A stretch of DNA of 64,000 nt from Deltaproteobacteria bacterium. Lineage in GTDB: Bacteria > Desulfobacterota > Binatia > HRBIN30 > JACQVA1. Each line of letters opens with the position of its first letter. The stretch's first letter is position 1. The DNA is taken from assembly GCA_016178705.1 (NCBI GenBank), contig JACOST010000014.1:1-64000 (forward strand). Reading direction: 5' to 3'. Of this stretch, positions 1 to 12,396 are shown piece after piece. The translations under genes and the position numbers were made by a program. The notes under the pieces are model-generated. The model made no database searches and had not been told where the DNA came from. It worked only from the letters and a program-made list of their open reading frames with translations.

Positions 1-1028
1 AGTGCGGCGGCATCGGCGCTCGGCATTGCAGGCGGCGCTGGGTTCGCGCGTGATAGCGCCTTGAGTCGACGAAGCAACGCCCGCAGATCCTCCAGCGTGC
101 GCTTGCGCGCGAAGCGGCACCACGCGCGGCGGAATTCCGTGCGTGCGTTGGCGGCGCGCTGCCGCTGGTGCTCAGTATACGCGCCCAGCGCAAGCAACCC
201 GGCGGATTCCATCGGCGCGGCGCTGGTCGCCTGGTGCAGGAACGCGGTTGCTACCACGGCATCCTGATGTGCACCGAGGAGGTCTTGCAGCCGGATCAGT
301 CGCTTGACCAAGCGGCGGCCCGGTTTGCCGGTCAACTCACGGAGGAATTCGAGCAAGTAGCGCACCCGCTTAGCACGGATACGAAGCGCGTGCAGGTCCT
401 CGGGCGTGACGTCGTGATCACCCGCGGCAATGGCGTTGCCGCGTTGGAGCAGCCGCTTTGCGCCACGCCCGAGGATGCGGCGGCCGGCGGTCGCTAGCAG
501 ATCGTGCGCGGCAGCGGGCTGCGCGGGTCCGCGGGGTCCCGTCGCAAATCGTTCCAGGCGCGTCAGTAGGATGGCGTATCGGCGCGAGTCGAGGGCGACC
601 AGCATCGCTCCGCGACGGCGAGTTCGTTCGCGACGCACGTGCGGCTCCAACCATGCGAGCCCGCCACGTTGAGCAGGTGAGAGGCTAGCGCGGTAGGTTC
701 TCAAGGCCACCAGTTGCACGTCGAGATCGCGTACGCCACCCAAGCTCTCGCCGAGCCAGTGCAACTCACGTCGGAAAGCCTCCCGCTGTCGTATCGGGAT
801 AGCGACCGCGAAGATCCGCACCGCGGCTCGCAGGCGACGCACCGCGACGCGCATGCTGTGGAGCGCCTCGGGGTCTTCACCGCGCCGCGTGCCTGAATCG
901 TGTTGCCGCAACCGCTGCGATTGGAGTGCGACGATCTGGCGCAGAGCATCGCCGAGCGCGGCTCCCGCCGGCGGAAGTGTTGGCGCTGCCAAGTTAGCTT
1001 GTTCACGAGCTATCGCGCCCTTACTCAC
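1..1028 (-). CDS. CHAD domain protein, C-terminus cut by window edge
   Basis: The reading frame runs leftward from a GTG at 1028 to the window edge without a stop. Early in the protein is the CHAD signature: a His-Ser-Met-Arg-Val-x-x-x-Arg-Leu-Arg stretch, and later a second Leu-His-x-Leu-Arg-Ile-x-x-Lys-x-x-Arg-Tyr repeat (near 340-380). CHAD domains are alpha-helical, rich in conserved His and basic residues, and bind polyphosphate. The gene follows two thymidylate-kinase-like genes and a Ppx/GppA gene on the same strand, a context that fits polyphosphate metabolism. The GTG has a weak GAGG 8 bases upstream, so the start is tentative. The family assignment is firm from motifs; the cellular role is inferred. 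Confidence 0.85.
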   Translation of the reverse strand, partial: MSKGAIAREQANLAAPTLPPAGAALGDALRQIVALQSQRLRQHDSGTRRGEDPEALHSMRVAVRRLRAAVRIFAVAIPIRQREAFRRELHWLGESLGGVRDLDVQLVALRTYRASLSPAQRGGLAWLEPHVRRERTRRRGAMLVALDSRRYAILLTRLERFATGPRGPAQPAAAHDLLATAGRRILGRGAKRLLQRGNAIAAGDHDVTPEDLHALRIRAKRVRYLLEFLRELTGKPGRRLVKRLIRLQDLLGAHQDAVVATAFLHQATSAAPMESAGLLALGAYTEHQRQRAANARTEFRRAWCRFARKRTLEDLRALLRRLKALSRANPAPPAMPSADAAA

Positions 1029-1071
1029 CGGAAGCCTCGATGTCCTCTCGCGAGGCGCGGCCGCTCGACCG

Positions 1072-1824
1072 TTATTCGTCGACCGCCAACTTGCTCTCCG
1101 CCAACGAGGCGGGATCGGCGGGCGGTCGTTTGCTGCGGTTGAGGTAGGAAGAGATGTGGCGCCGCAGGTCGGCCTGAATCGTCTCAATCGGCCGGCGCGC
1201 GTCAATGGTGACGAACTGGAATTCCTGCGCCAGCCGATTGTACTCGCGAATCAGTCGGGTCTGGTAGTGGCGGAACGAGTCGAAGATGTCACTGCCCAAC
1301 GCCAGGTGCATGCCGGACTCCCAGTAGTCCATACCCTTGCCTTCGAGCACGCGTGGAATCAAATGATCGGCGTCGATCTTGAGATACAAAACCAGATCGG
1401 GCACGAGCGCGCACCCGAAGAGTTCGCGGGTCCACTTCGGATCGGCGCGCATGACCGCATTGCGCGCAAAGGCCGTGTACATATAGCGGTCCGCGACAAC
1501 GATGAACCCGGCACGGAGCGCGGGAATGATTTCATTCTCCAAGCGATCGGCGAAGTCGGCGGCGTAGAGCAAGCTGAACGTAGTCACGGTCAGCTCGTGA
1601 CCAGCCTTCGCTTCGTTGATGGTCTCGGAGAGCAACGGAGACCGGGTCCACCCGGTGTTGGTCACGCCGTGGCCTTGCACTTCCAACCACGGCGTGAGCT
1701 GCTCGATCTGGGTCGAGCGGCCAACCCCGTCGGTTCCCTCGATCACAATCAGGCTGCCGCGCAGCGAACCGATTTTCAGATACGGCAGGCCATGCCCGTA
1801 GAAGGCCTTATCTTCACCGTGCAT
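1072..1824 (-). CDS. Thymidylate-kinase-like P-loop protein with altered Walker A
   Basis: This 250-residue protein resembles the thymidylate kinase (TMPK) fold. It has a P-loop at residues 30-38, a TTFSLL...DFADRL segment, and a DRY motif at 112-114 (ADRYMYTAFAR). The P-loop reads GTDGVGRST: the Lys that normally holds the phosphates is Arg36. The TREPGGT motif of true TMPKs is absent. The ATG lies inside the end of the upstream paralogue (11-base overlap) behind a GGAGGG ribosome site, so the two are probably translationally coupled. The family is clear. Whether it still phosphorylates a nucleotide is doubtful, and genuine dTMP kinase function should not be assumed. Confidence 0.8.
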   Translation of the reverse strand: MHGEDKAFYGHGLPYLKIGSLRGSLIVIEGTDGVGRSTQIEQLTPWLEVQGHGVTNTGWTRSPLLSETINEAKAGHELTVTTFSLLYAADFADRLENEIIPALRAGFIVVADRYMYTAFARNAVMRADPKWTRELFGCALVPDLVLYLKIDADHLIPRVLEGKGMDYWESGMHLALGSDIFDSFRHYQTRLIREYNRLAQEFQFVTIDARRPIETIQADLRRHISSYLNRSKRPPADPASLAESKLAVDE

Positions 1825-2569
1825 CCCCGATCCCTCCGCTTTCGCTGGCGCCTCCGCTGTCGCTCACGACTCGCTCGACGGGCGCGGCAGCGACCTCGGC
1901 AACCGTCCCGCGGTAGTCGCGGATTGCACGACGGGCCAGCCGGCGAACGAGCGCCTGCTGGCTATTGATGTCGCCCCGCGCGTCGACCACTTTGAGTCCG
2001 AACTCCGCCACCAGCGCATCGTAGCTCTTGAGCACGCGGCTTTGGAACAACTGGAAACTCTCCACCGGGTCACGACTCAACCCCACGTCCATCCCGGCCT
2101 CGTGATACTTCAGTTTGGCGCGGCCGCTCAGGATGCGATCAAGCGCCACGTCGATCGGGACGCGAAAGTACAGCGCCAGGTCCGGCCGCGGAGCGAAGCT
2201 GTAGACGGCGCGTACCCACTCCGGATGGACGCCACGCGCGACATCACGCGCGAACGCCGTGTACACATAGCGATCCGCCAACACGATCATTCCAGCTTTC
2301 AGCGGGGGAACGATCTTGTAGGTCAAGCGGTCGGCGAAATCGACCGCGTGAAGAAGACTGAACGTCGTCGGCGTGAGCAGATCCTTCTTCTTGCCGCGCT
2401 TCATCGAGCGTCGCACCAGGATCGACGAGTTCCATTCGGTAAAGAACACCTTGTGGCCCTGCGCGACCAGCCAGCGGTGCAGCAGCGCGATCTGGGTCGA
2501 CTTGCCGGAGCCGTCGATACCTTCGACGATGATGAGTTTACCCGGATACAGATGCGGTTCGGTCAACAT
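1814..2569 (-). CDS. Thymidylate-kinase-like P-loop kinase (intact Walker A)
   Basis: This 251-residue paralogue of the next gene keeps a canonical P-loop, EGIDGSGKST (Lys23), and the DRY motif (residues 99-101) in an ADRYVYTAFARD context. It shares with its neighbour the TTFSLLHA-x-DFADRL helix, and both lack the TREPGGT substrate loop of housekeeping TMPK. The gene starts 18 bases after the Ppx/GppA stop, so the operon order is ppx, this gene, the Arg-loop paralogue, CHAD. TMPK and PPK2 polyphosphate kinases belong to related P-loop kinase groups, so a role in phosphate transfer linked to polyphosphate is possible, but this is inference. Alternative: the organism's dTMP kinase. Confidence 0.8.
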   Translation of the reverse strand: MLTEPHLYPGKLIIVEGIDGSGKSTQIALLHRWLVAQGHKVFFTEWNSSILVRRSMKRGKKKDLLTPTTFSLLHAVDFADRLTYKIVPPLKAGMIVLADRYVYTAFARDVARGVHPEWVRAVYSFAPRPDLALYFRVPIDVALDRILSGRAKLKYHEAGMDVGLSRDPVESFQLFQSRVLKSYDALVAEFGLKVVDARGDINSQQALVRRLARRAIRDYRGTVAEVAAAPVERVVSDSGGASESGGIGDAR

Positions 2570-2587
2570 GAACGCACGACTCGCGGC

Positions 2588-4126
2588 TTACGGGATGACA
2601 CGAAAGTCCACTGCAGTGTCCAGCAGTTTCTCAAGCGGCTCGGCACGGCGGCGGGCTTCCCAAATTTCCAGCTCTGCATCGTCGCCGTCGGTCTGGAGCT
2701 GCAAGAGCCAGCGGTCTGAGCGTTGGGTCATCGTCACATCGCGCACCACGCCGTAGTGGCTGCGATCCAAACCGTCGGCCACGCGCAAGATGGCGCTCAA
2801 CGCGCGCACCGTACGGCGCTCAGCGCTGGGCAACTCGGCAAACGCATCGTCCGACCCCTTGGGTGCGCCCTTCTGGTGATAGCGCGCCACCAAGGCGATG
2901 AGTTCCAACTCGTCGCGCTGAAAGCCGAGCAAGTCACCATTCGTGATCAGATAGTAGGAGTGCCGATGGTGGTTCTCATGGCCGATGTGATGCCCGACAT
3001 CGTGCAGCAGTGCGGCAAACTCGAGCCATTCGCGCGCGGCCGGCTCGAGACCGAGCGCGCTGCTCAGTTGATCAAACAGACGCAGCGCGATGCGAGCGAC
3101 CTGCTGCCCGTGCTGCTCCGTTCCTCCCAAGTGGCGGACGAAGCGCGCCACGCTGCGGCGCCGCACATCGGCGAAGCGTTCGATCTCCTCGATCCCTTTG
3201 CGATGCTTGGCGATGAAGTCGAGCAGCAACCCCTCTCGCAACGCCCAGGTACAGGCCACCATTTCCTTCGCGTCGAGTTGGCGCAAAATGTGGTCGGCCA
3301 AGCAGGCACCGGCGACGATGATGTCACTCCGCTTCGCATCCAAGCCCTTGATCCGCAGGCGTTCGGCACGGTCGGCCTTGGTCACCAGCCGGCGGACGTG
3401 GGCGATCTCCTCCGCCGTCGCCACGCAATTGTTGAGGTGGCCGTCGGGCGGCTCACCGCGCTGGAACGCGGCGATGGTGATCACGTTCAAGAGCGTCCCC
3501 GATGTCGCGACCACGCGGCGGATGTCGCGCTTCGCGAGTGGCGCAAGAATCGGATCGAGGTGCTGGTGCAAGTGCGCCTCAATCTGAGCGACCCCCTGTG
3601 CACCGAGCGCGTCATCACCGACGAACTCCTCACTGAGGCGCGCCACACCGATCTTGAGGCTGTGCAGTCCGGTTGGCCGGTCGTCCTCAACCACAACGAG
3701 TTCGACGCTGCCGCCACCGGCGTCGACGATCAGCGTCTCGGCGCCGTGCAAATCAATGGCGTGACGCACACCGAGATAGATCAAGCGCGCCTCCTCGCGT
3801 CCGGGGATTACTTTGACGCGCAGGCCCACGTCGTCGTACACGCGCTGGATGAAATCGCCGCCATTGCGCGTCTCGCGGACCGCGCTGGTGGCCACGGCCT
3901 TGAACCGCTCGACGCCTTGGCGCTCGCCCAGCGTCCGAAACGCCGAGAGCGTGCGCAGGCCGGCATTCATCGCCTCAGCCGACAGCCGCCCACTACGCAG
4001 ACTGCCGCGACCCAACCGCACCATTTCCTTGGCACGATCGAGTACGCGGAAGCGTCCGTCGGATTCTACTTGGGCAATCACCATGTGGATGGAATTGCTC
4101 CCAACGTCGATTGCAGCAATGCGCAT
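2588..4126 (-). CDS. ppx: Ppx/GppA exopolyphosphatase with C-terminal HD domain
   Basis: The predicted 512-residue protein begins with the actin-fold phosphate-binding motif AIDVGSNSIHMVIA, as in exopolyphosphatase and guanosine pentaphosphate phosphohydrolase. A second glycine-rich phosphate loop, DAGGGSVELVV, follows, then a C-terminal HD-type domain with LLHDVGHHIGHENHH. Ppx/GppA enzymes release phosphate from polyphosphate or convert pppGpp to ppGpp; sequence alone does not separate the two. I chose the ATG at 4126 because homology begins there; the frame is open 40 codons further upstream without family features. It leads the operon with two TMPK-like genes and CHAD. The symbol reflects family rather than proven substrate. 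Confidence 0.9.
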   Translation of the reverse strand: MRIAAIDVGSNSIHMVIAQVESDGRFRVLDRAKEMVRLGRGSLRSGRLSAEAMNAGLRTLSAFRTLGERQGVERFKAVATSAVRETRNGGDFIQRVYDDVGLRVKVIPGREEARLIYLGVRHAIDLHGAETLIVDAGGGSVELVVVEDDRPTGLHSLKIGVARLSEEFVGDDALGAQGVAQIEAHLHQHLDPILAPLAKRDIRRVVATSGTLLNVITIAAFQRGEPPDGHLNNCVATAEEIAHVRRLVTKADRAERLRIKGLDAKRSDIIVAGACLADHILRQLDAKEMVACTWALREGLLLDFIAKHRKGIEEIERFADVRRRSVARFVRHLGGTEQHGQQVARIALRLFDQLSSALGLEPAAREWLEFAALLHDVGHHIGHENHHRHSYYLITNGDLLGFQRDELELIALVARYHQKGAPKGSDDAFAELPSAERRTVRALSAILRVADGLDRSHYGVVRDVTMTQRSDRWLLQLQTDGDDAELEIWEARRRAEPLEKLLDTAVDFRVIP

Positions 4127-4320
4127 TCCGATCCCATCTACCACACCACCACCCCACTTCGGTTCACACGATAGCACACCCGATGCGATCTTCGAGCGGG
4201 GTGCGAACCGAAGGGTACTGCCGCGCCGTTGACCAGCCTCGGTCAACGCGTCAGTACGCGAACCACCCTGCCACGGAAACGTTTCGGTTCGATTACCAGC
4301 ACATGAACAATTCGCGTCGA
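4127..4320. other. Intergenic region between sulfatase and ppx
   Basis: These 194 bases separate the sulfatase stop from the ppx start, both genes being leftward. The region would hold the ppx operon promoter. I see an imperfect hairpin (GTTGACC...GGTCAAC near 4229-4245) but no T-run and no recognisable sigma-70 promoter. Confidence 0.4.
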
Positions 4321-5703
4321 CTAGCTCGAAATGCTTCGGCGCTCGGTCTCGACCTCCTCGAACCAGGCCGCAAGCTGGCTTTGCATGCGAGTGACTCGCG
4401 CGTGTTCGAACGGGGCGAGATCATTCCGCTCGAACGGATCGGTGACGAGATCGAACAGTTGCGGCGCCGGCGGTGGAGACAGCTCGCGTGCTGGTTCGGG
4501 TGTCCGCATGATGTCGGTATGGTCGTCGGGATGGTACTTCGCGTCGATGTCCATCTTGAGATCACTGCTGGCGAGTGCCATCGCCTCAGTGATCGCGGGA
4601 CGAACGAGTTTCCAGCGGCCGTCGCGCATCGCCGCGTTACACTCGCCGACAGGGGTGTAGCGGTTCCATTGCCAGAAGCGCGTGGTGCACACTTTGCCCC
4701 GCTCGCCTTGCAGCATGGGCAGGACATTCACGCCGTCGAGTTGCACATCGTGCGGCGGCGCCGCGCCGGCGACGTCGAGCAGCGTCGGCAACCAGTCGGT
4801 GAAGTGAACCATTTCGTCGATCTGTCGCCGGCCAGCGAAACCGGCAGGCCATCGCAACACCATCGGCAGGCGGATGCCGCCCTCGTACACCAGGAGCTTG
4901 GCGCCTCTGAATCCGCAGTTGAATCGGTCGGTACACATGTCGCCTTTGCCGCCGAACTGCGGCCCGTTGTCGCTGGAGAAGAGCACCAGCGTGTTGTCGG
5001 CAAGCCCTTCGTGATCGAGCGCGTCGAGTACCCGCGCGATGCCGCGATCCATGCCGCGAATCATGCCGAAGATGTGACTGACCGCGGGGGTGAAGCGGTC
5101 CGCGTCACGAAACGGCGCGAGATCGTCGTCGCGCGATTGAAACGGGAAGTGCGGCGCATTGTAGGCGAGGTAGAGGAAGAAGGGCTCGCTGCGATGGCGG
5201 TGAATGAACTGCTCGGCCTCCTCGGTGAGGACGTCGGTGAGATACGTCCCGTCGCTGCGCGCGATGGCTCCGTTGCGATCCAACCGCCAGTCGAAGTACG
5301 GCGACCAGCCGCCGGAGAAACCCGCGAACTCGTCGAAGCCGCGCTGATTCGGGTGATAGCGCGGATCGAGCGAGCCGTTGTGCCACTTGCCCACCAGACC
5401 AGTGATGTAGCCCGCGCGCTTGAGCAGGTCGGCAACCGTGCGTTCGCGCAGCGCGAGGCGATCGAGCCCGCGCATCTCCAGCGTGTCGATGACACCGGTG
5501 CGATGCGGATAGCGTCCGGTCAGCAGCGACGCCCGCGCCGGCGCGCATACCGGCGAGGCCGAGTAGTGTTGCGTCAGGCAGACGCCCTCGCTGACGAGAT
5601 GATCGAGCGTCGGCGTTTGCGACACGCCGTCGTTGAAGCAACCGAAGTCGCCGTACCCCATGTCATCGGCGAGGATGAAGAGGATGTTGGGACGATTCGG
5701 CAT
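4321..5703 (-). CDS. Sulfatase (arylsulfatase family, Cys-type)
   Basis: A 460-residue sulfatase of the alkaline-phosphatase superfamily. The N-terminus carries the metal-binding NILFILADDMGYGD. The catalytic signature CAPARASLLTGR has Cys53, which would be converted to formylglycine. A downstream SSDNGPQFGG motif supplies further metal ligands. The start at 5703 begins directly with the catalytic domain, so there is no signal peptide and the enzyme should act in the cytoplasm. It is the last gene of a tight leftward operon with a GFA-like protein, an amidohydrolase and a Gfo/Idh oxidoreductase (gaps of 5-10 bases), pointing to desulfation of an imported sugar; the substrate is not visible. 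Confidence 0.92.
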   Translation of the reverse strand: MPNRPNILFILADDMGYGDFGCFNDGVSQTPTLDHLVSEGVCLTQHYSASPVCAPARASLLTGRYPHRTGVIDTLEMRGLDRLALRERTVADLLKRAGYITGLVGKWHNGSLDPRYHPNQRGFDEFAGFSGGWSPYFDWRLDRNGAIARSDGTYLTDVLTEEAEQFIHRHRSEPFFLYLAYNAPHFPFQSRDDDLAPFRDADRFTPAVSHIFGMIRGMDRGIARVLDALDHEGLADNTLVLFSSDNGPQFGGKGDMCTDRFNCGFRGAKLLVYEGGIRLPMVLRWPAGFAGRRQIDEMVHFTDWLPTLLDVAGAAPPHDVQLDGVNVLPMLQGERGKVCTTRFWQWNRYTPVGECNAAMRDGRWKLVRPAITEAMALASSDLKMDIDAKYHPDDHTDIMRTPEPARELSPPPAPQLFDLVTDPFERNDLAPFEHARVTRMQSQLAAWFEEVETERRSISS

Positions 5704-5708
5704 CGAGT

Positions 5709-6164
5709 TCACTTGCGATCGAGCTTGAGCGCCCGCAGCATTTGCATGCGCACGTCGCGCGGCGGACCGGCATCGTAGCTCGGCAGCGAGTGATCGAGAT
5801 TCCACCACGGCGCCTTCTGGTTGACGTGGATCTGATCGATCAGTCGGGAGCCACAATCGCCCGCGATGAGCCCGGCGGGAATCTCGACGAACTGGGCGCC
5901 GTCACGCGCGATCGGCAGTGGCGAGCCGCATACACGGCAGAAGCATTGGCGATATGCCGGCGGCTTCTCGCGCACCGGGAGGTCAAACACAGCGACTAGT
6001 TCCAGCCCCCGCAGCCACGCGAAATCGGTGGCCTTCACCCAGAAGGTCGCGGCAAACGCGGACCCGGAGGCCGCGCGACAGCGCACGCAGTGACACAACT
6101 CGATCGCCGTCGCGGGACCGTGGATCTCAAACGCGACGGCCCCACACAAACATCGTCCTTCCAT
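5709..6164 (-). CDS. GFA-family (glutathione-dependent formaldehyde-activating-like) zinc protein
   Basis: A 151-residue GFA/CENP-V fold protein. The zinc-binding cysteines are all present: CLCGAVAF near the start, CHCVRCR, and CFCRVCGSPL. Members bind zinc and some have been linked to glutathione-dependent formaldehyde or dehalogenation chemistry, but most are of unknown function. The ATG at 6164 is where homology begins. It sits 10 bases after the lactonase-like amidohydrolase and 5 bases before the sulfatase, so it is cotranscribed with sugar catabolism genes. Its role there is unknown. Confidence 0.88.
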   Translation of the reverse strand: MEGRCLCGAVAFEIHGPATAIELCHCVRCRAASGSAFAATFWVKATDFAWLRGLELVAVFDLPVREKPPAYRQCFCRVCGSPLPIARDGAQFVEIPAGLIAGDCGSRLIDQIHVNQKAPWWNLDHSLPSYDAGPPRDVRMQMLRALKLDRK

Positions 6165-6174
6165 TGGGTTCACC

Positions 6175-7005
6175 TCACGCGAGCCCGTAGCAATGCACGG
6201 CTGTTTCCCCGAGGATCGCTCGCTGCTCGCCGGGCGCAAGGCGCGCAATATAGTCGGTGACGATGGCGACGACATCGGCATAGGTGCCGGCAAGCAAGCA
6301 GACCGGCCAATCGGAGCCGATCAGCAGCCGCTGCGGACCGAAGGCTTCGAGCGCGGCGTCGAGATACACGGTGAAGTGGGCCGGTTTCCAACTGTGCCAG
6401 TCCGTTTCGGTGACCATCCCGGAGAGCTTGCAGTACACGTCGCCGGACGCGGCCAGCGCGACGATGTCGCGTCGCCAGTCATCAATGCGGCGCGCGCCGA
6501 TCTCCGGCTTGCCGATATGATCGAGGACGAAGCGTTGTTGCGGGAACCGTCGTACCAATTCGATCGCGGCGGGCAACTGGCGCGCGTAGACGAGGACATC
6601 GTAGGTCAGACCGAACGACGCGAGCGCCGCAATGCCACGCTGGAAGTCAGCGCGCAGCACAAACTGATCGTCAGGCTCGTCCTGCACGACGTGGCGGACG
6701 CCGCGCAGCTTTGAATGGGCGGCACAGCGATGCAGCGCATCGGTGACGGTGGGCGCACACAGATCGACCCAGCCGACGACGCCGCGAATGAACGGATGCG
6801 CGTCGGCTAGTTGCAGCAGCCATTCGGTTTCGGCGACGTCCTGCTGCGCTTGGACAGCCACGCAGCCGTCGAAGTCCGCCGCGGCGAGCAGCGGCGCCAA
6901 ATGCTCGGGCAGGAAGTCACGCTTGAGCGGCGCCATCGCATCAGTGATCCACCCGTGCGTCGCGCGCCGGTACTGCCAGAAGTGTTGATGAGCATCGATG
7001 TGCAC
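6175..7005 (-). CDS. Amidohydrolase-2 family, probable L-fuconolactonase
   Basis: A 276-residue TIM-barrel amidohydrolase. It starts with the metal motif HIDAHQHFW, continues with VLDHIGKPEI (His ligand) and ends with the LLIGSDWPV aspartate motif, the pattern of the COG3618 lactonase group. L-fuconolactonase, L-rhamnono-lactonase and related sugar lactonases belong here. A divergent L-fuconate dehydratase and a nearby mutarotase and SDR make L-fucono-1,5-lactone the likeliest substrate. It lies 6 bases downstream of the Gfo/Idh gene in the same operon. The family is firm; exact sugar stereochemistry is inferred. Confidence 0.88.
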   Translation of the reverse strand: MHIDAHQHFWQYRRATHGWITDAMAPLKRDFLPEHLAPLLAAADFDGCVAVQAQQDVAETEWLLQLADAHPFIRGVVGWVDLCAPTVTDALHRCAAHSKLRGVRHVVQDEPDDQFVLRADFQRGIAALASFGLTYDVLVYARQLPAAIELVRRFPQQRFVLDHIGKPEIGARRIDDWRRDIVALAASGDVYCKLSGMVTETDWHSWKPAHFTVYLDAALEAFGPQRLLIGSDWPVCLLAGTYADVVAIVTDYIARLAPGEQRAILGETAVHCYGLA

Positions 7006-7011
7006 TGCTGC

Positions 7012-8091
7012 TCACTCTCCCGACAGGATCGGCGTCGCACCGTGCGCGCTCGACTCGTAGCAGGCTTCGACGATTGCCATCGTATGGAACGCGTCCTCAA
7101 CGCTCGACATCAATGTCGCGTCCTCGCCGGCCACGACGCGCTGCAGATTCGCCATCGGTCCCTCGAACGCTTCGAGAAACCACGAACCGCGCAGCGGCAC
7201 GTTGGCCCAGTCGTCGCTGCCGGTCGTGATCTCCAGTGCATCGGGCTCGCCGTGTGGATAGTTGAGGTTCACGCCCATCCTGGCAATCGCGGCACCGCGC
7301 GTGCCCTCGATCTTGAGCTGCGACATTCCGTACCGCGTCCCGAACGTGTGCGTGTGGTTGAGGGTCAGGCTGCAGCGGATCAGATCGCCGTAGTCGAGAA
7401 TGATGCTCGTGCGGACGTCGGGGTATTCGGCGAGATCCGGATGACGTACCCCGCGGCAGTAGACGCCGTGCGGTTCACCAATCAGCGCGCGAATGAGATC
7501 GATGTAGTGGACCGAGTGCACCAGCACCTCGAGCCGCGGTACGCCCTTCAAGAACGCCCAGTAGCCCCATGGTGTATGCAAGTTCAGTCGCACTTCGATG
7601 TCGGTGACGTCGCCGAGCAGCTCGCGCTGCAACGCGTCGCGCAGCGCTAGCATGTTGGGCGCGAAGCGGAGTTGAAAATTGATCGCCGCGGTGAGTTGGC
7701 GGCCACGACAGATCTCGCGGATGCGACGCGCATCAGCGAGGTCGCGCCCCATCGGCTTTTGAATCAACACCGCCGCGCTGGCTGGCATGTGATTCAGGAT
7801 GCCCGCAATTTCACCCGGCGGCGCGGCCACGTCGAACACCGCGTCCGGCGTTGCGAGCGCCGCGTCGAGCGAATCGAACACGCGCGGGATGCCGAAGGTC
7901 TCCGCCCGCTCGCGACTCGCCGCCGGGTTTACATCGAAGATGCCCGCGACCGGGAAGCCGAGCCGTTGGTAGACCGGCAGGTGCGCATCACGCACGATGC
8001 TGCCGGCACCGATGATGACAATCGGCCGCGGTGCGGTCGGCAGCGGCCAGCGTTGGCGCAAGTCGGTGAATCGACTGACAGCGTCCATCAT
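7012..8091 (-). CDS. Gfo/Idh/MocA family NAD(P)-dependent sugar dehydrogenase
   Basis: A 359-residue oxidoreductase with an N-terminal Rossmann fold (IVIIGAGSIVRDAHLP) and the catalytic QKPMG motif, corresponding to the EKP motif of the family with the key Lys kept. The C-terminal half matches the Gfo/Idh beta-sheet domain. It opens the leftward operon with the lactonase-like gene. An oxidation of a sugar C1 to lactone (an L-fucose or related sugar dehydrogenase) would feed directly into the lactonase, but this is inference from context. Two adjacent ATG codons are possible starts. Confidence 0.88.
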   Translation of the reverse strand: MMDAVSRFTDLRQRWPLPTAPRPIVIIGAGSIVRDAHLPVYQRLGFPVAGIFDVNPAASRERAETFGIPRVFDSLDAALATPDAVFDVAAPPGEIAGILNHMPASAAVLIQKPMGRDLADARRIREICRGRQLTAAINFQLRFAPNMLALRDALQRELLGDVTDIEVRLNLHTPWGYWAFLKGVPRLEVLVHSVHYIDLIRALIGEPHGVYCRGVRHPDLAEYPDVRTSIILDYGDLIRCSLTLNHTHTFGTRYGMSQLKIEGTRGAAIARMGVNLNYPHGEPDALEITTGSDDWANVPLRGSWFLEAFEGPMANLQRVVAGEDATLMSSVEDAFHTMAIVEACYESSAHGATPILSGE

Positions 8092-8163
8092 GAACCGGCG
8101 GCAACGTCGACCATCTTCGCTCTCAACGTGCGCATGCTATACCAGCCGCCCGGAGGGAGAACC

Positions 8164-9462
8164 ATGCCGCACACCATCACCGCACTTCACCCCCGCGACA
8201 TCCGCACGCCGACTTCACGCACGCTCGCCGGGTCCGATGCCGTGCACACCGATCCCGACTACTCCGCTGCCTACGTCGTGCTCACCACCGATCACCCCGA
8301 CGCGCTGCAAGGGCACGGGCTCACGTTCACCATCGGGCGCGGCACCGAAGTATGCGTGGCTGCTATCAAGGCGTTGGCGCCACTGGTGGTGGGGCAGACG
8401 CTCGAATCCATCATCGCCGACATGGCCAACTTCTGGCGCCGCCTCACCGGCGAAAGCCAACTGCGCTGGATCGGTCCGGAGAAGGGTGCGATCCATCTCG
8501 CCACCGCGGCGATCGTCAACGCCGTGTGGGATCTGTGGGCGAAGGTCGAAGGCAAGCCGGTGTGGAAGGTCGTCGCTGACATGACCCCGGAGCAATTCGT
8601 CGCCTGCATCGATTTTCGCTACCTCAGCGACGCGCTTACCCGCGACGACGCGCTCGCCATTCTCCGCTCTCAGGCAGCTACGCGCGGCGCGCGTGAAGCG
8701 GAAATGCGGCGCGACGGCTACCCGGCGTACATCACCTCCGCGGGCTGGATGGGCTACCCCGACGACAAAGTTCGCACGCTCTGTCGCGAGGCACTCGCCG
8801 CGGGCTGGACCCGTTTCAAAATCAAAGTCGGACGCGACACCGATGAGAACGTCCGTCGCTGCGCGCTGGTGCGCGAGGAGATCGGGCCGAACGCGTGGCT
8901 GATGCTCGACGCCAATCAGGCGTGGGATGTCGGCGAGGCGATCGACTACATGCGACCGCTCGCGCGATTCCGTCCGTTGTGGATCGAGGAGCCGACGAGC
9001 CCCGACGACATTCTGGGTCACGCAGCGATCCGGCGCGCGATCACACCGATTGGCGTCGCCACCGGCGAGCATTGCCCGAACCGCGTGATGTTCAAACAGC
9101 TCCTGCAAGCGCACGCGATCGATTTCTGCCAATTCGACAACTGCCGCCTCGGCGGCCTCAGCGAAGTGATGGCCGTGTTGCTGCTCGCCGCCAAGTTCGG
9201 CGTGCCGGTCTGCCCGCACGCGGGCGGACTCGGCCTGTGCGAGTACGGCCAGCACGTCTCGCTGATCGACTACATTTGCGTGAGTGGAAGCTTGGAGAAC
9301 CGCGCCATCGAGTTCGCCGATCACCTGCACGAACACTTCGTCGCGCCGGTGGTCGTGCGCAACGGGCGTTACCGGCCACCGACTGCGCCGGGCTTCAGCA
9401 TCGAGATGCACGCGGCATCGCTGGCCGAGTTCGATTTTCCGGGTGGGGCGGCGTGGGGGTAG
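8164..9462 (+). CDS. fucD: L-fuconate dehydratase (enolase superfamily)
   Basis: A 432-residue mandelate-racemase/enolase superfamily protein. It shows the KIKVG base motif, metal ligands in MLDANQAWD, WIEEPTSPDD and VATGEHCPN, and the catalytic His in CPHAGGLGLCEYGQH, all as in L-fuconate dehydratase. The enzyme dehydrates L-fuconate to 2-keto-3-deoxy-L-fuconate. The ATG at 8164 follows a strong GGAGGGAGA ribosome site. The gene is divergent from the Gfo/Idh-lactonase-sulfatase operon with 72 bases between, suggesting shared regulation. Length is normal for the family. Confidence 0.93.
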   Translation: MPHTITALHPRDIRTPTSRTLAGSDAVHTDPDYSAAYVVLTTDHPDALQGHGLTFTIGRGTEVCVAAIKALAPLVVGQTLESIIADMANFWRRLTGESQLRWIGPEKGAIHLATAAIVNAVWDLWAKVEGKPVWKVVADMTPEQFVACIDFRYLSDALTRDDALAILRSQAATRGAREAEMRRDGYPAYITSAGWMGYPDDKVRTLCREALAAGWTRFKIKVGRDTDENVRRCALVREEIGPNAWLMLDANQAWDVGEAIDYMRPLARFRPLWIEEPTSPDDILGHAAIRRAITPIGVATGEHCPNRVMFKQLLQAHAIDFCQFDNCRLGGLSEVMAVLLLAAKFGVPVCPHAGGLGLCEYGQHVSLIDYICVSGSLENRAIEFADHLHEHFVAPVVVRNGRYRPPTAPGFSIEMHAASLAEFDFPGGAAWG

Positions 9463-9467
9463 TGGAG

Positions 9468-9496
9468 CATCCGACCGATCGGACTGATCGGACCGA
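9468..9496. repeat. Short GACCGATCG-type tandem repeat
   Basis: Just after fucD the sequence repeats a CCGATCGGACTGATCGGACC pattern with a period of about 10, ending at the mutarotase stop codon. The units are also partly self-complementary (GATCGG/CCGATC), so it may form a hairpin between the convergent genes. No T-run follows. Confidence 0.5.
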
Positions 9497-9832
9497 TCAA
9501 ATCAGCGCATACACCAGATCCATATCCGCCCACCACTCACCCGGCTTGGCGTCGAACACCGGCTCCTGGAACGTCTCCATCAGCGCTTGCCACTCGCGGA
9601 TGCGCGGGTCGCTCTCCATGTAGCGGGCGAAGTCGCGCTCGGGATCGAAGTCATCGACCGTCTCCATCAGCATGAAGAGCCGCCGGCCGAGGCGCCAGAT
9701 CAGCATGCGCTCGATGCCGATCGCGCGGAGTCCGCGTTCCACCTCGGGCCAAACGCTACGGTGATACTCGATGTAGCGGGCGATGATACTGGGATCGTCC
9801 TTCAAGTTGAGCGTGCGAGCGTAGCGTTTCAT
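9497..9832 (-). CDS. L-rhamnose/L-fucose mutarotase (RhaM family)
   Basis: A 111-residue single-domain protein of the L-rhamnose mutarotase family (dimeric alpha/beta barrel). Visible family features are the N-terminal Arg-Tyr-x-x-x-Leu-Asn-Leu-Lys-Asp-Asp, the YHRSVWPEV segment with its catalytic His, and a C-terminal WWADMDLVYAL. Such enzymes interconvert the alpha and beta anomers of deoxy sugars; here L-fucose is the likely substrate because of the neighbouring fuconate dehydratase. The start at 9832 is chosen from homology. It is convergent with fucD and downstream of the SDR. Confidence 0.9.
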   Translation of the reverse strand: MKRYARTLNLKDDPSIIARYIEYHRSVWPEVERGLRAIGIERMLIWRLGRRLFMLMETVDDFDPERDFARYMESDPRIREWQALMETFQEPVFDAKPGEWWADMDLVYALI

Positions 9833-9854
9833 GGGTTCATGGTCCCTGGTTTGT

Positions 9855-9912
9855 GGTCTGTGGTTTGTGGTTTCCGCCCCAACCATGAACCAGAAACCAC
9901 AAACCACAGACC
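9855..9912. repeat. 20-bp perfect inverted repeat
   Basis: Two 20-base arms (9855-9874 and 9893-9912) are exactly complementary and enclose an 18-base loop. The arms are built from GGTTTGTG/CACAAACC words, and the left arm is preceded by another partial copy. It lies between the SDR stop and the mutarotase start on the same strand. It could be a transcript hairpin, but there is no U-run, so it is not a classical terminator. Confidence 0.75.
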
Positions 9913-10728: not shown

Positions 10729-11730
10729 TCAGAGCCCGATCATTCGTAACAACTCGACGATCATCATCGCGATCGCGGCGGTACACGGCACGGTCAATAT
10801 CCACGCCCACACGACGGTGCGCGCCACACCCCAGCGCACGGCCGACAAACGGCGGCTCGCCCCGACGCCGACGATCGCGCCGGTAATAGTGTGGGTGGTG
10901 CTCACCGGAATCCCTGCCATCGCCGCGCCGATGAGCGTGATCGCGCCCGCGGTCTCGGCGCAGAAGCCACCGATCGGTTGCAGCTTCGTAATGCGCATCC
11001 CCATCGTCTTGACGATGCGCCAGCCGCCGAACATCGTGCCGAGCGCGATCGCCGCATGGCACAACAGCACCACCCAGAACGGCACGTAGAAGGTCTTGCC
11101 GAGATAGCCGGCCGAGAACAGCAGGACCGAAATGATGCCCATGGTCTTCTGCGCGTCGTTGGTCCCGTGGCCGAGACTGTAGAGCGCTGCCGACACCAGT
11201 TGCAGCCGGCGGAACAAGCTGTCGACAACAGCCGGCGTCGAATGCCGCACGAAGATCAGCGTCAGCGTCATCATCGTCACGCCGATCAGCAGTCCGACGA
11301 CAGGCGAAATGAAGATGAAGAGTACGATTTTCAACACGCCGGACACGATCACCGCTTGCGGCCCAACCGCGGCGACGGCGGCACCGGCGAAGCCGGCGAT
11401 CAACGCGTGCGACGAACTGGTCGGCAGCGCGTACAACCAGGTGATGACATCCCACGCGATCGCCGCCGCCAAACCGGCGAACACAACAGTGGGCGTCGCT
11501 GCCGCGGGATCGATGATGCCCTTGCCGACCGTGGCCGCCACTGCCACGCCGAAGCCAAACGCCGCCACAAAGTTGAAGAACGCGGCCCACGCCACCGCCT
11601 GGCGCGGCGTGAGCACGCGAGTCGACACCACCGTCGCCACCGAGTTGGCGGCGTCGTGAAAGCCGTTCATGAAGTCGAAGCCCAGCGCCACGACGACGAG
11701 GAAGATAACCAAACCCATCCCACCACCCAC
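10729..11730 (-). CDS. pit: Inorganic phosphate transporter, Pit family
   Basis: A 333-residue inner-membrane protein with about nine or ten hydrophobic segments. Both copies of the duplicated PHO4/Pit signature are present: GFHDAANSVAT near residues 23-33 and LGHGTNDAQKTMGI in the second half. Pit proteins import metal-phosphate complexes using the proton gradient. The gene follows the DUF47/PhoU-like gene by 36 bases on the same strand, the usual partner arrangement. Length is at the short end for the family (short bacterial/archaeal type). Confidence 0.93.
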   Translation of the reverse strand: MGGGMGLVIFLVVVALGFDFMNGFHDAANSVATVVSTRVLTPRQAVAWAAFFNFVAAFGFGVAVAATVGKGIIDPAAATPTVVFAGLAAAIAWDVITWLYALPTSSSHALIAGFAGAAVAAVGPQAVIVSGVLKIVLFIFISPVVGLLIGVTMMTLTLIFVRHSTPAVVDSLFRRLQLVSAALYSLGHGTNDAQKTMGIISVLLFSAGYLGKTFYVPFWVVLLCHAAIALGTMFGGWRIVKTMGMRITKLQPIGGFCAETAGAITLIGAAMAGIPVSTTHTITGAIVGVGASRRLSAVRWGVARTVVWAWILTVPCTAAIAMMIVELLRMIGL

Positions 11731-11766
11731 GGAGAGTACGTAACGCTGGTGAAACCCAGGCGCGAC

Positions 11767-12396
11767 TTACGCGTATTCGAGCGCGACGCCTTCGAGAATG
11801 TTGGCCACGTCCTCGCAGCGATCCACGGCGTCTTCCAGGAAGTCGTACAGCTCTTTGAGTTTGATGATGGTGACCGGGTCCTTGGTGCCGTTGAAGAGGC
11901 GCCCCAGTGCGCTGCGCAGGAGCGTGTCGCCCTCGTTTTCGAAGCGATTGATCTCCATACAAATCTTGATGAGGCCGTCGCGGTCCTTGAGATTGCGCAA
12001 GCCGGTCATCGCGCGATTGACCTGCGTGACCGCCTGCACCAACACTTCGGCGATCTGCACGGCGTCCGGATCCACCTCGGTGAGTTTATAGAGCCACACC
12101 CGTTCGGCGGTGGCTTCGATGAGATCGAGAATATCGTCCAGCCGGGTGATCAGGCGATGGATGTCGCCGCGATCGATCGGCGTCACGAAGGTCTTGTGCA
12201 ACGTCTCAACGGCCTTGTGCGTGATGACATCGCCTTCGTGCTCGACCTCTTTGATGCGGCGAGCCTGCGAGGCCGCGTCGCCGGGAGTCGTCAGCATCGT
12301 GTGCAACAATTTTGCCCCTTCCAGCGTCTTCGCGGCGTGCTGCTCGAAGAAGTCGAAGAAGCCCTTGCCTTCGCTGGGGAACAGTCTGGCGAACAT
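11767..12396 (-). CDS. DUF47/PhoU-like phosphate transport regulator
   Basis: A 209-residue all-helical protein of the DUF47 (TIGR00153) family, distantly related to PhoU. It begins with the typical Phe-rich segment (GKGFFDFFEQHA) and carries the E-x-x-x-D repeats that bind metal in PhoU-like proteins (IKEVEHEGD, INRFENEGD). Members are cotranscribed with Pit transporters and are thought to modulate them. The ATG at 12396 fits the homology start; a longer frame reaches 12561 but runs into the mobile element upstream. Confidence 0.92.
   Translation of the reverse strand: MFARLFPSEGKGFFDFFEQHAAKTLEGAKLLHTMLTTPGDAASQARRIKEVEHEGDVITHKAVETLHKTFVTPIDRGDIHRLITRLDDILDLIEATAERVWLYKLTEVDPDAVQIAEVLVQAVTQVNRAMTGLRNLKDRDGLIKICMEINRFENEGDTLLRSALGRLFNGTKDPVTIIKLKELYDFLEDAVDRCEDVANILEGVALEYA

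Follow-up and report, generated by a model that had tools for sequence, protein, structure and literature searches.

The first genes of a 64,000-nucleotide stretch of the genome of a Deltaproteobacteria bacterium (assembly GCA_016178705.1, 6.1 Mb in 33 contigs) form a cluster that pairs two thymidylate kinase (TMK)-like proteins, here called A and B, with proteins that act on the energy-storage polymer polyphosphate (polyP). The whole stretch, here called the window, begins with the first base of contig JACOST010000014.1 (C14). On the minus strand, four genes follow one another head to tail in the order Ppx/GppA, TMK-A, TMK-B and CHAD, and the contig end at base 1 cuts the cluster. The first gene (2588..4126) encodes a 512-residue exopolyphosphatase of the Ppx/GppA family with a C-terminal HD domain (Pfam PF02541, 206.7 bits against a gathering cut-off of 27; PF21447, 105.3 bits; HD, 32.4 bits). 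Its best NCBIfam model, TIGR03706, scores 274.6 bits, under the cut-off of 307, and the GppA and Ppx cut-offs were likewise not reached. It is followed by subunit A (1814..2569, 251 residues; PF02223, 76.1 bits), subunit B (1072..1824, 250 residues; PF02223, 74 bits) and a CHAD-domain protein (3..~1028; PF05235, 192 bits against a gathering cut-off of 25.6), which is truncated by the contig end and likely begins at a GTG at 1028, a start that is uncertain. Only 18 bases separate the Ppx stop from the start of A, the stop of A overlaps the start of B by 11 bases, and ~43 bases lie between the stop of B and the likely CHAD start, in agreement with the tightly spaced single-strand cluster described in the first-pass annotation of these letters. 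A profile search of the whole 6.1 Mb assembly found a single CHAD match, the gene of this cluster, and the arrangement recurs in relatives; the gene arrangement is therefore not a product of chance.

Both A and B resemble canonical dTMP kinases in fold, Walker A, DR motif and in scores that lie near the TIGR00041 cut-off of 83.25 bits: B reaches 86.9 bits, exceeding the cut-off by 3.7 bits, and A reaches 82.7 bits (83.0 in another search, or 83.3 with neighbours). The TREPGGT motif of dTMP kinases is absent, as had been noted from the letters alone, its position reading FTEWNSS in A (TEWNSS replacing TREPGGT) and NTGWTRS in B. The Walker A motif of A is GIDGSGKST and that of B is GTDGVGRST, in which arginine takes the place of lysine. 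The best match of both proteins in the Protein Data Bank (PDB) is ST1543 of Sulfolobus tokodaii (PDB 2plr, 4nzy, 4rzx, 5h70), with phmmer scores of 190 bits for A and 139 bits for B, the next best being ~54. AlphaFold models of the two subunits (mean pLDDT 91.1 for A and 90.7 for B) match the same protein best (A: Z 28.6, rmsd 1.5, 207 aligned residues, 46% identity; B: Z 26.8, rmsd 1.8, 204 aligned), with canonical TMKs ranking behind it at Z up to 24.5. ST1543 also shares the EWNSS motif and the phenylalanine at column 77 described below.

The pair was followed through related genomes and beyond. When the window's genome and those of 57 relatives (58 in all) were searched with TIGR00041, 56 gave matches over the cut-off, and a tandem low-scoring A+B pair appeared in 14 of the 57 relatives, in which BLAST confirms orthologues of A and B. 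Identities to the window's A and B are 73-89% in 12 of these 14 relatives and 50-59% in L039 and L051. In a draw of Desulfobacterota the distribution is patchy, the pair occurring in 4 of 148 genomes and always as two neighbouring genes. A species-genome collection scanned with an ST1543-led alignment contained at least 545 stretches encoding a relative, from which the best 80 loci were kept; most of the scanned loci come from metagenome assemblies, and single phylum labels may be wrong. Two TMK-type genes stand in 79 of these best 80 loci, and in the sole exception, L120, the contig ends 2 bases after A. At one further locus, L125, another gene separates B and A.

After exclusion of L105 (truncated A), L116 (truncated B) and L120 (no B), 92 complete loci entered the correlation, tree and residue counts. 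The pairwise identities of A and B correlate across these loci (r = 0.883; highest of 1000 permutations, 0.109), which indicates that the pair travels together. A quick tree of 37 of the 92 loci, 12 of 34 canonical sequences and ST1543, supported by SH-aLRT only and without bootstrap, split A+B from canonical TMKs (SH-aLRT 100) and gathered B into one clade (99). Besides the window's own group, the 37 loci are labelled as 15 bacterial and 3 archaeal phyla. The A protein of a Sulfolobus locus (L063) groups with ST1543 inside the A+B group, and the B protein of the same locus lies inside the B clade at the tip of a very long branch (2.74). As A is paraphyletic to B in this quick tree and the root is a long branch, we claim neither subunit as ancestral and propose no order of origin. 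Taken together, these comparisons of sequence indicate that A and B are an ancient matched pair and a conserved unit. More distant single TMK-like genes, ~30% identical to A and scoring 57-61 bits with TIGR00041, were seen in three genomes of one family (L055:4922-5626, L056:4749-5858 and L057:4795-5931).

Residues that set the pair apart from canonical enzymes were identified by comparing the 92 loci with 34 canonical sequences, 32 of which come from genomes related to the window's. The E-P-G of TREPGGT, present in all 34 canonical sequences, is W-N-S in A at 92/92 loci and W-T-R in the window's B. At column 77 the canonical arginine (34/34) is replaced by phenylalanine in A (92/92) and B (89/92), and the canonical Tyr-Gln at columns 107-108 becomes a gap followed by arginine in A. 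In canonical enzymes EPGG, the column-77 arginine and Tyr-Gln take part in binding dTMP, the arginine at the thymine. Because EWNSS was one of two patterns used in the scan, counts of the A motif in the 80 scanned loci are biased, which weighs against the reading proposed below; WNSS is nonetheless present in 14/14 loci of the relatives found with TIGR00041, which are free of this bias. Five basic residues (K60, R81, R108, R150, R209) never vary in A, whereas in the canonical sequences they are absent or variable. R108 is common to 91/92 B proteins, and the positions of K60, R81, R150 and R209 vary in B. In all 15 loci of the window's group the Walker A motif is GxDGSGKS in A and GxD[GS]VGR[ST] in B. 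Across the 92 loci A keeps the lysine; B carries arginine at 84 loci and lysine at the other eight. The eight lysine-B loci (L074, L081, L082, L104, L107, L121, L128 and L132) comprise seven from Gastranaerophilales and one labelled Clostridiaceae, which the tree places with a Gastranaerophilales row; such loci possibly encode two active subunits. With a median identity of ~28% between A and canonical TMKs, and with these replacements in proteins that come paired, A and B are, on the evidence of their residues, not ordinary dTMP kinases, as the first-pass annotation had suspected.

The neighbourhood of the pair was counted over 95 loci (the window, the 14 relatives and the best 80 scanned loci), using for PPX and CHAD profiles built from these loci rather than curated cut-offs. 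PPX is present in 51/95 loci, 36 of which have it on the strand of the pair and no more than 200 bases away. CHAD is present in 37/95 loci, and one or the other occurs in 59/95. A SixA-like phosphatase cluster is found in 19/95 loci, and an ABC ATPase cluster that includes a PstB in 10/95. Ppx lies beside the pair in 11 of the 14 relatives: eight of these proteins are 45-51% identical to the window's, a fragment is 58% identical, and the values for L045 and L051 are 66% and 30%. BLAST detects CHAD in eight of the relatives at 26-39% identity. At the Phycisphaerae locus L125, the gene between B and A (L125:3321-5972) encodes an 883-residue fusion with an N-terminal CHAD domain, Ppx/GppA and HD. 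In Sulfolobus sp. UBA167 (L063) the order is SixA-ppx-A-B, with the pair directly after ppx and an A protein 44% identical to the window's. The next open reading frame of L063 has no Pfam match and a marginal CHAD profile score (E 0.0025), and we do not claim it as a CHAD gene. The idea of a polyphosphate-linked operon with conserved Ppx and CHAD linkage is supported.

A ROK-family sugar kinase gene lies downstream of the pair in 11 loci, all of them labelled Verrucomicrobia or its groups except L064 (Sumerlaeota), and in some of these, such as L135, PPX follows the ROK kinase. Two of these kinases (L118:3592-4578 and L135:7437-8417) score below the glucokinase cut-off and match the polyphosphate glucokinase model weakly; the ROK kinases downstream of the pair could be polyP-dependent.

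The nearest described systems are archaeal. A study of biomining archaea describes a gene neighbourhood of CHAD that is conserved in these organisms and has PPX nearby, lists SixA, PPX, dTMP kinase and CHAD as members of the Sulfolobales CHAD clusters, and states that the crenarchaeal enzyme that makes polyP had not then been identified (PMC10892726). According to another article, ppx of S. acidocaldarius is Saci_2018 and polyP accumulates in some Crenarchaeotes, no archaeal PPK homologue having been found till then (PMC7831078). A distinct PPK-type enzyme in Sulfolobus is mentioned in a further article, which cites Hofmann et al. 2026, J Biol Chem 302:111283 (PMC13318637). By homology and synteny Sulfolobus has the same A+B pair right after ppx, whereas the host of the window is a bacterium and the window's B is less diverged than that of Sulfolobus. 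The recently named Sulfolobus enzyme is reportedly a heteromer of two TMK paralogues encoded beside ppx, and the window's A and B presumably belong to its family. Our literature searches returned nothing describing the A+B pair in bacteria, which is weak evidence of novelty since most subscription papers lie outside their coverage. The arginine in the Walker A motif of B, the fixed pairing across many phyla and the same pair beside ppx in Sulfolobus go beyond the first-pass annotation.

We consider it probable that A and B form a heteromeric, TMK-derived polyphosphate kinase in which B is a non-catalytic partner, and most likely that the pair is, to judge from these similarities, a bacterial representative of what looks like the family recently named in Crenarchaeota. 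This proposal builds on the order of the genes, the pairing and co-inheritance of A and B, their lack of canonical motifs, the fold predicted for them and the ppx-A-B order of Sulfolobus. A would use its intact Walker A motif to bind ATP and would pass the gamma phosphate on to a polyP chain end. The chain would sit where dTMP kinase holds dTMP and might be held by K60, R81, R108, R150 and R209. B, with arginine in its Walker A motif in most lineages, would not turn over ATP and may instead act, in physical complex with A, as an obligatory structural, regulatory or chain-holding partner. With synthesis as the direction of the reaction, and with Ppx degrading the polymer and CHAD binding it, the operon would make, hold and degrade polyphosphate.

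A different assignment would keep the pair among the nucleotide kinases, with A (and B as its partner) being a kinase of shifted specificity, for example in the salvage of another (d)NMP, and with the proximity of Ppx and CHAD reflecting phosphate or nucleotide economy. The TMK fold is compatible with such an activity, and several observations that favour it also weigh against a polyphosphate kinase: the TIGR00041 scores lie at the cut-off, the ST1543 structures, one with ADP, were deposited under the name dTMP kinase, and two 2017 papers, cited in PMC10248530 and titled on a hyperthermophilic and on the S. tokodaii thymidylate kinase, may hold dTMP kinase data. We nevertheless regard a shifted nucleotide kinase as unlikely, as EPGG, the column-77 arginine (replaced by phenylalanine) and Tyr-Gln at columns 107-108 are all altered, as linkage to Ppx and CHAD recurs and extends to a Ppx-CHAD fusion, and as a separate tmk over the cut-off was counted by hand in 35 of 41 pair-bearing genomes, themselves hand-picked for spread from the best 80 loci, and in 14/15 genomes of the window's group. 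In the remaining genomes of the 41 the separate match falls below the cut-off in G078 (70.9 bits) and G092 (81.4 bits), G072 and G081 have separate matches of only ~45 bits or less, and G085 and G089 contain the pair alone. In G081, the genome of L096, two contigs each carry an A+B pair, and no canonical tmk exceeds the cut-off.

The same counts bear on the suggestion that one of the two proteins is simply the housekeeping dTMP kinase, duplicated, with its linkage to Ppx and CHAD incidental. The first-pass annotation had raised as an objection the case of a genome with no other tmk and a paralogue that fits canonical dTMP kinases well; the window's assembly indeed shows no TIGR00041 match over the cut-off besides the pair, and B itself passes the cut-off. 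However, all 14 other pair-bearing relatives possess a separate canonical tmk match (119.6-183.7 bits, the canonical matches of relatives being mostly 120-193 bits) together with the pair. Furthermore, the window's assembly has no orthologue of metG; the best match there covers 183 residues of a longer frame at 30%. In genomes such as G001 and G007 metG adjoins tmk, and it was seen in 10 of 32 tmk loci, the majority of which span only ~3.6 kb. With the tmk-linked metG also missing and a separate tmk in the 14 relatives, canonical tmk is likely absent from this assembly through an assembly gap, the stretch probably being unassembled. Relatives G009 and G014 likewise show no canonical tmk despite lacking the pair. 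The housekeeping role of A or B was therefore rejected for this genome, and we hold it to be highly improbable. A third PF02223 match of the window's genome is a deoxynucleoside kinase (G000:C13, L003:1375-2040; PF01712, 136.6 bits).

PPK2 is a P-loop kinase that acts on polyP and to which the first-pass annotation had tentatively related A and B. Two articles relate the PPK2 and TMK folds (PMC8776046; PMC4748334), and in the latter the nearest structures to a PPK2, after other PPK2s, are two thymidylate kinases, of which S. tokodaii 2PLR is named first. That relation does not extend to family membership, since neither A nor B matches PF03976 at E <= 0.1 and the genome's single PPK2 is a separate gene on another contig; PPK2 identity was accordingly rejected. 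The structural comparisons of A and of B each listed 50 entries, none of them a PPK2, which excludes nothing. The fold relationship would also suit a pair that runs mainly in reverse, with polyP as donor to ADP or NMPs in a PPK2-like function that consumes the polymer, and linkage to Ppx and CHAD fits either direction. A consumed polymer needs a maker, yet 34/41 pair-bearing genomes have no PPK1 match (any match in 7/41, five over the cut-off), an argument that is not decisive, PPK2 having been searched for only in the window's genome; we rate a mainly reverse reaction as somewhat less likely again than a shifted nucleotide kinase.

Further observations speak against a TMK-derived polyphosphate kinase that makes polyP. 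The PPX and CHAD profiles find neither gene in 36/95 loci. Of these 36, 21 belong to the 54 loci that have 4 kb or more of sequence on each side, and all eight lysine-B loci lack both genes in the examined stretch. In the L067 genome, one gene of the pair contains an in-frame stop. The genome's own PPK2 is another possible polyP enzyme. PPK1 was not found in the window's genome, and matched comparisons give it in 7/15 genomes with the pair versus 29/43 without among the window's relatives (p = 0.22), and in 1/4 with the pair versus 14/144 without in the phylum draw (p = 0.35). The lack of a PPK1 match in 34/41 pair-bearing genomes outside the window's group speaks for a pair that makes polyP, but as PPK1 is not significantly rarer in either comparison, we do not claim that the pair replaces it. 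In three genomes (G028, G035 and G042) PPK1 lies on the same contig as the pair, ~9-11 kb away.

The wider surroundings of the operon were also examined. A PiT phosphate transporter (10729..11730, minus strand; PF01384, 318.2 bits) and its partner, a PhoU-like DUF47 protein (11767..12396, minus strand; PF01865, 98.4 bits over the 209 residues scanned), form a pair on the same strand at 10729-12396, 6.6 kb from the Ppx start, matching the phosphate-uptake pair that had been recognized at this distance; both are given here as context only. Scans of positions 1-4700 returned no promoter-like site, and five terminator-like sites against 3.0 (standard deviation 2.0) in shuffled sequences, which is uninformative. 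Positions 4321-9907 encode a sulfatase and an amidohydrolase, both checked with Pfam, and further open reading frames resembling oxidoreductase and enolase-type proteins. This region may be a sugar-catabolism cluster unrelated to the Ppx/TMK/CHAD operon.

Whether a prokaryote can make polyphosphate is usually judged solely by the presence of PPK1 and PPK2. We see roughly even chances that the pair represents a third class of polyphosphate kinase, in which an active TMK-like subunit and a partner with arginine in its Walker A motif form a fixed heteromer. This class would be widespread in bacteria and archaea, would pass in databases for dTMP kinase and could supply polyP in many lineages without PPK1, the arginine of B being a conserved device and not decay. 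Should the pair prove to be a polyphosphate kinase, genomes now counted as lacking polyP synthesis would have to be rescored, and dTMP kinase would be the wrong name for many genes, with at least 545 stretches encoding a relative. The partner with arginine in place of lysine would then provide a clean test of what a pseudo-kinase subunit contributes to a polymerising kinase.

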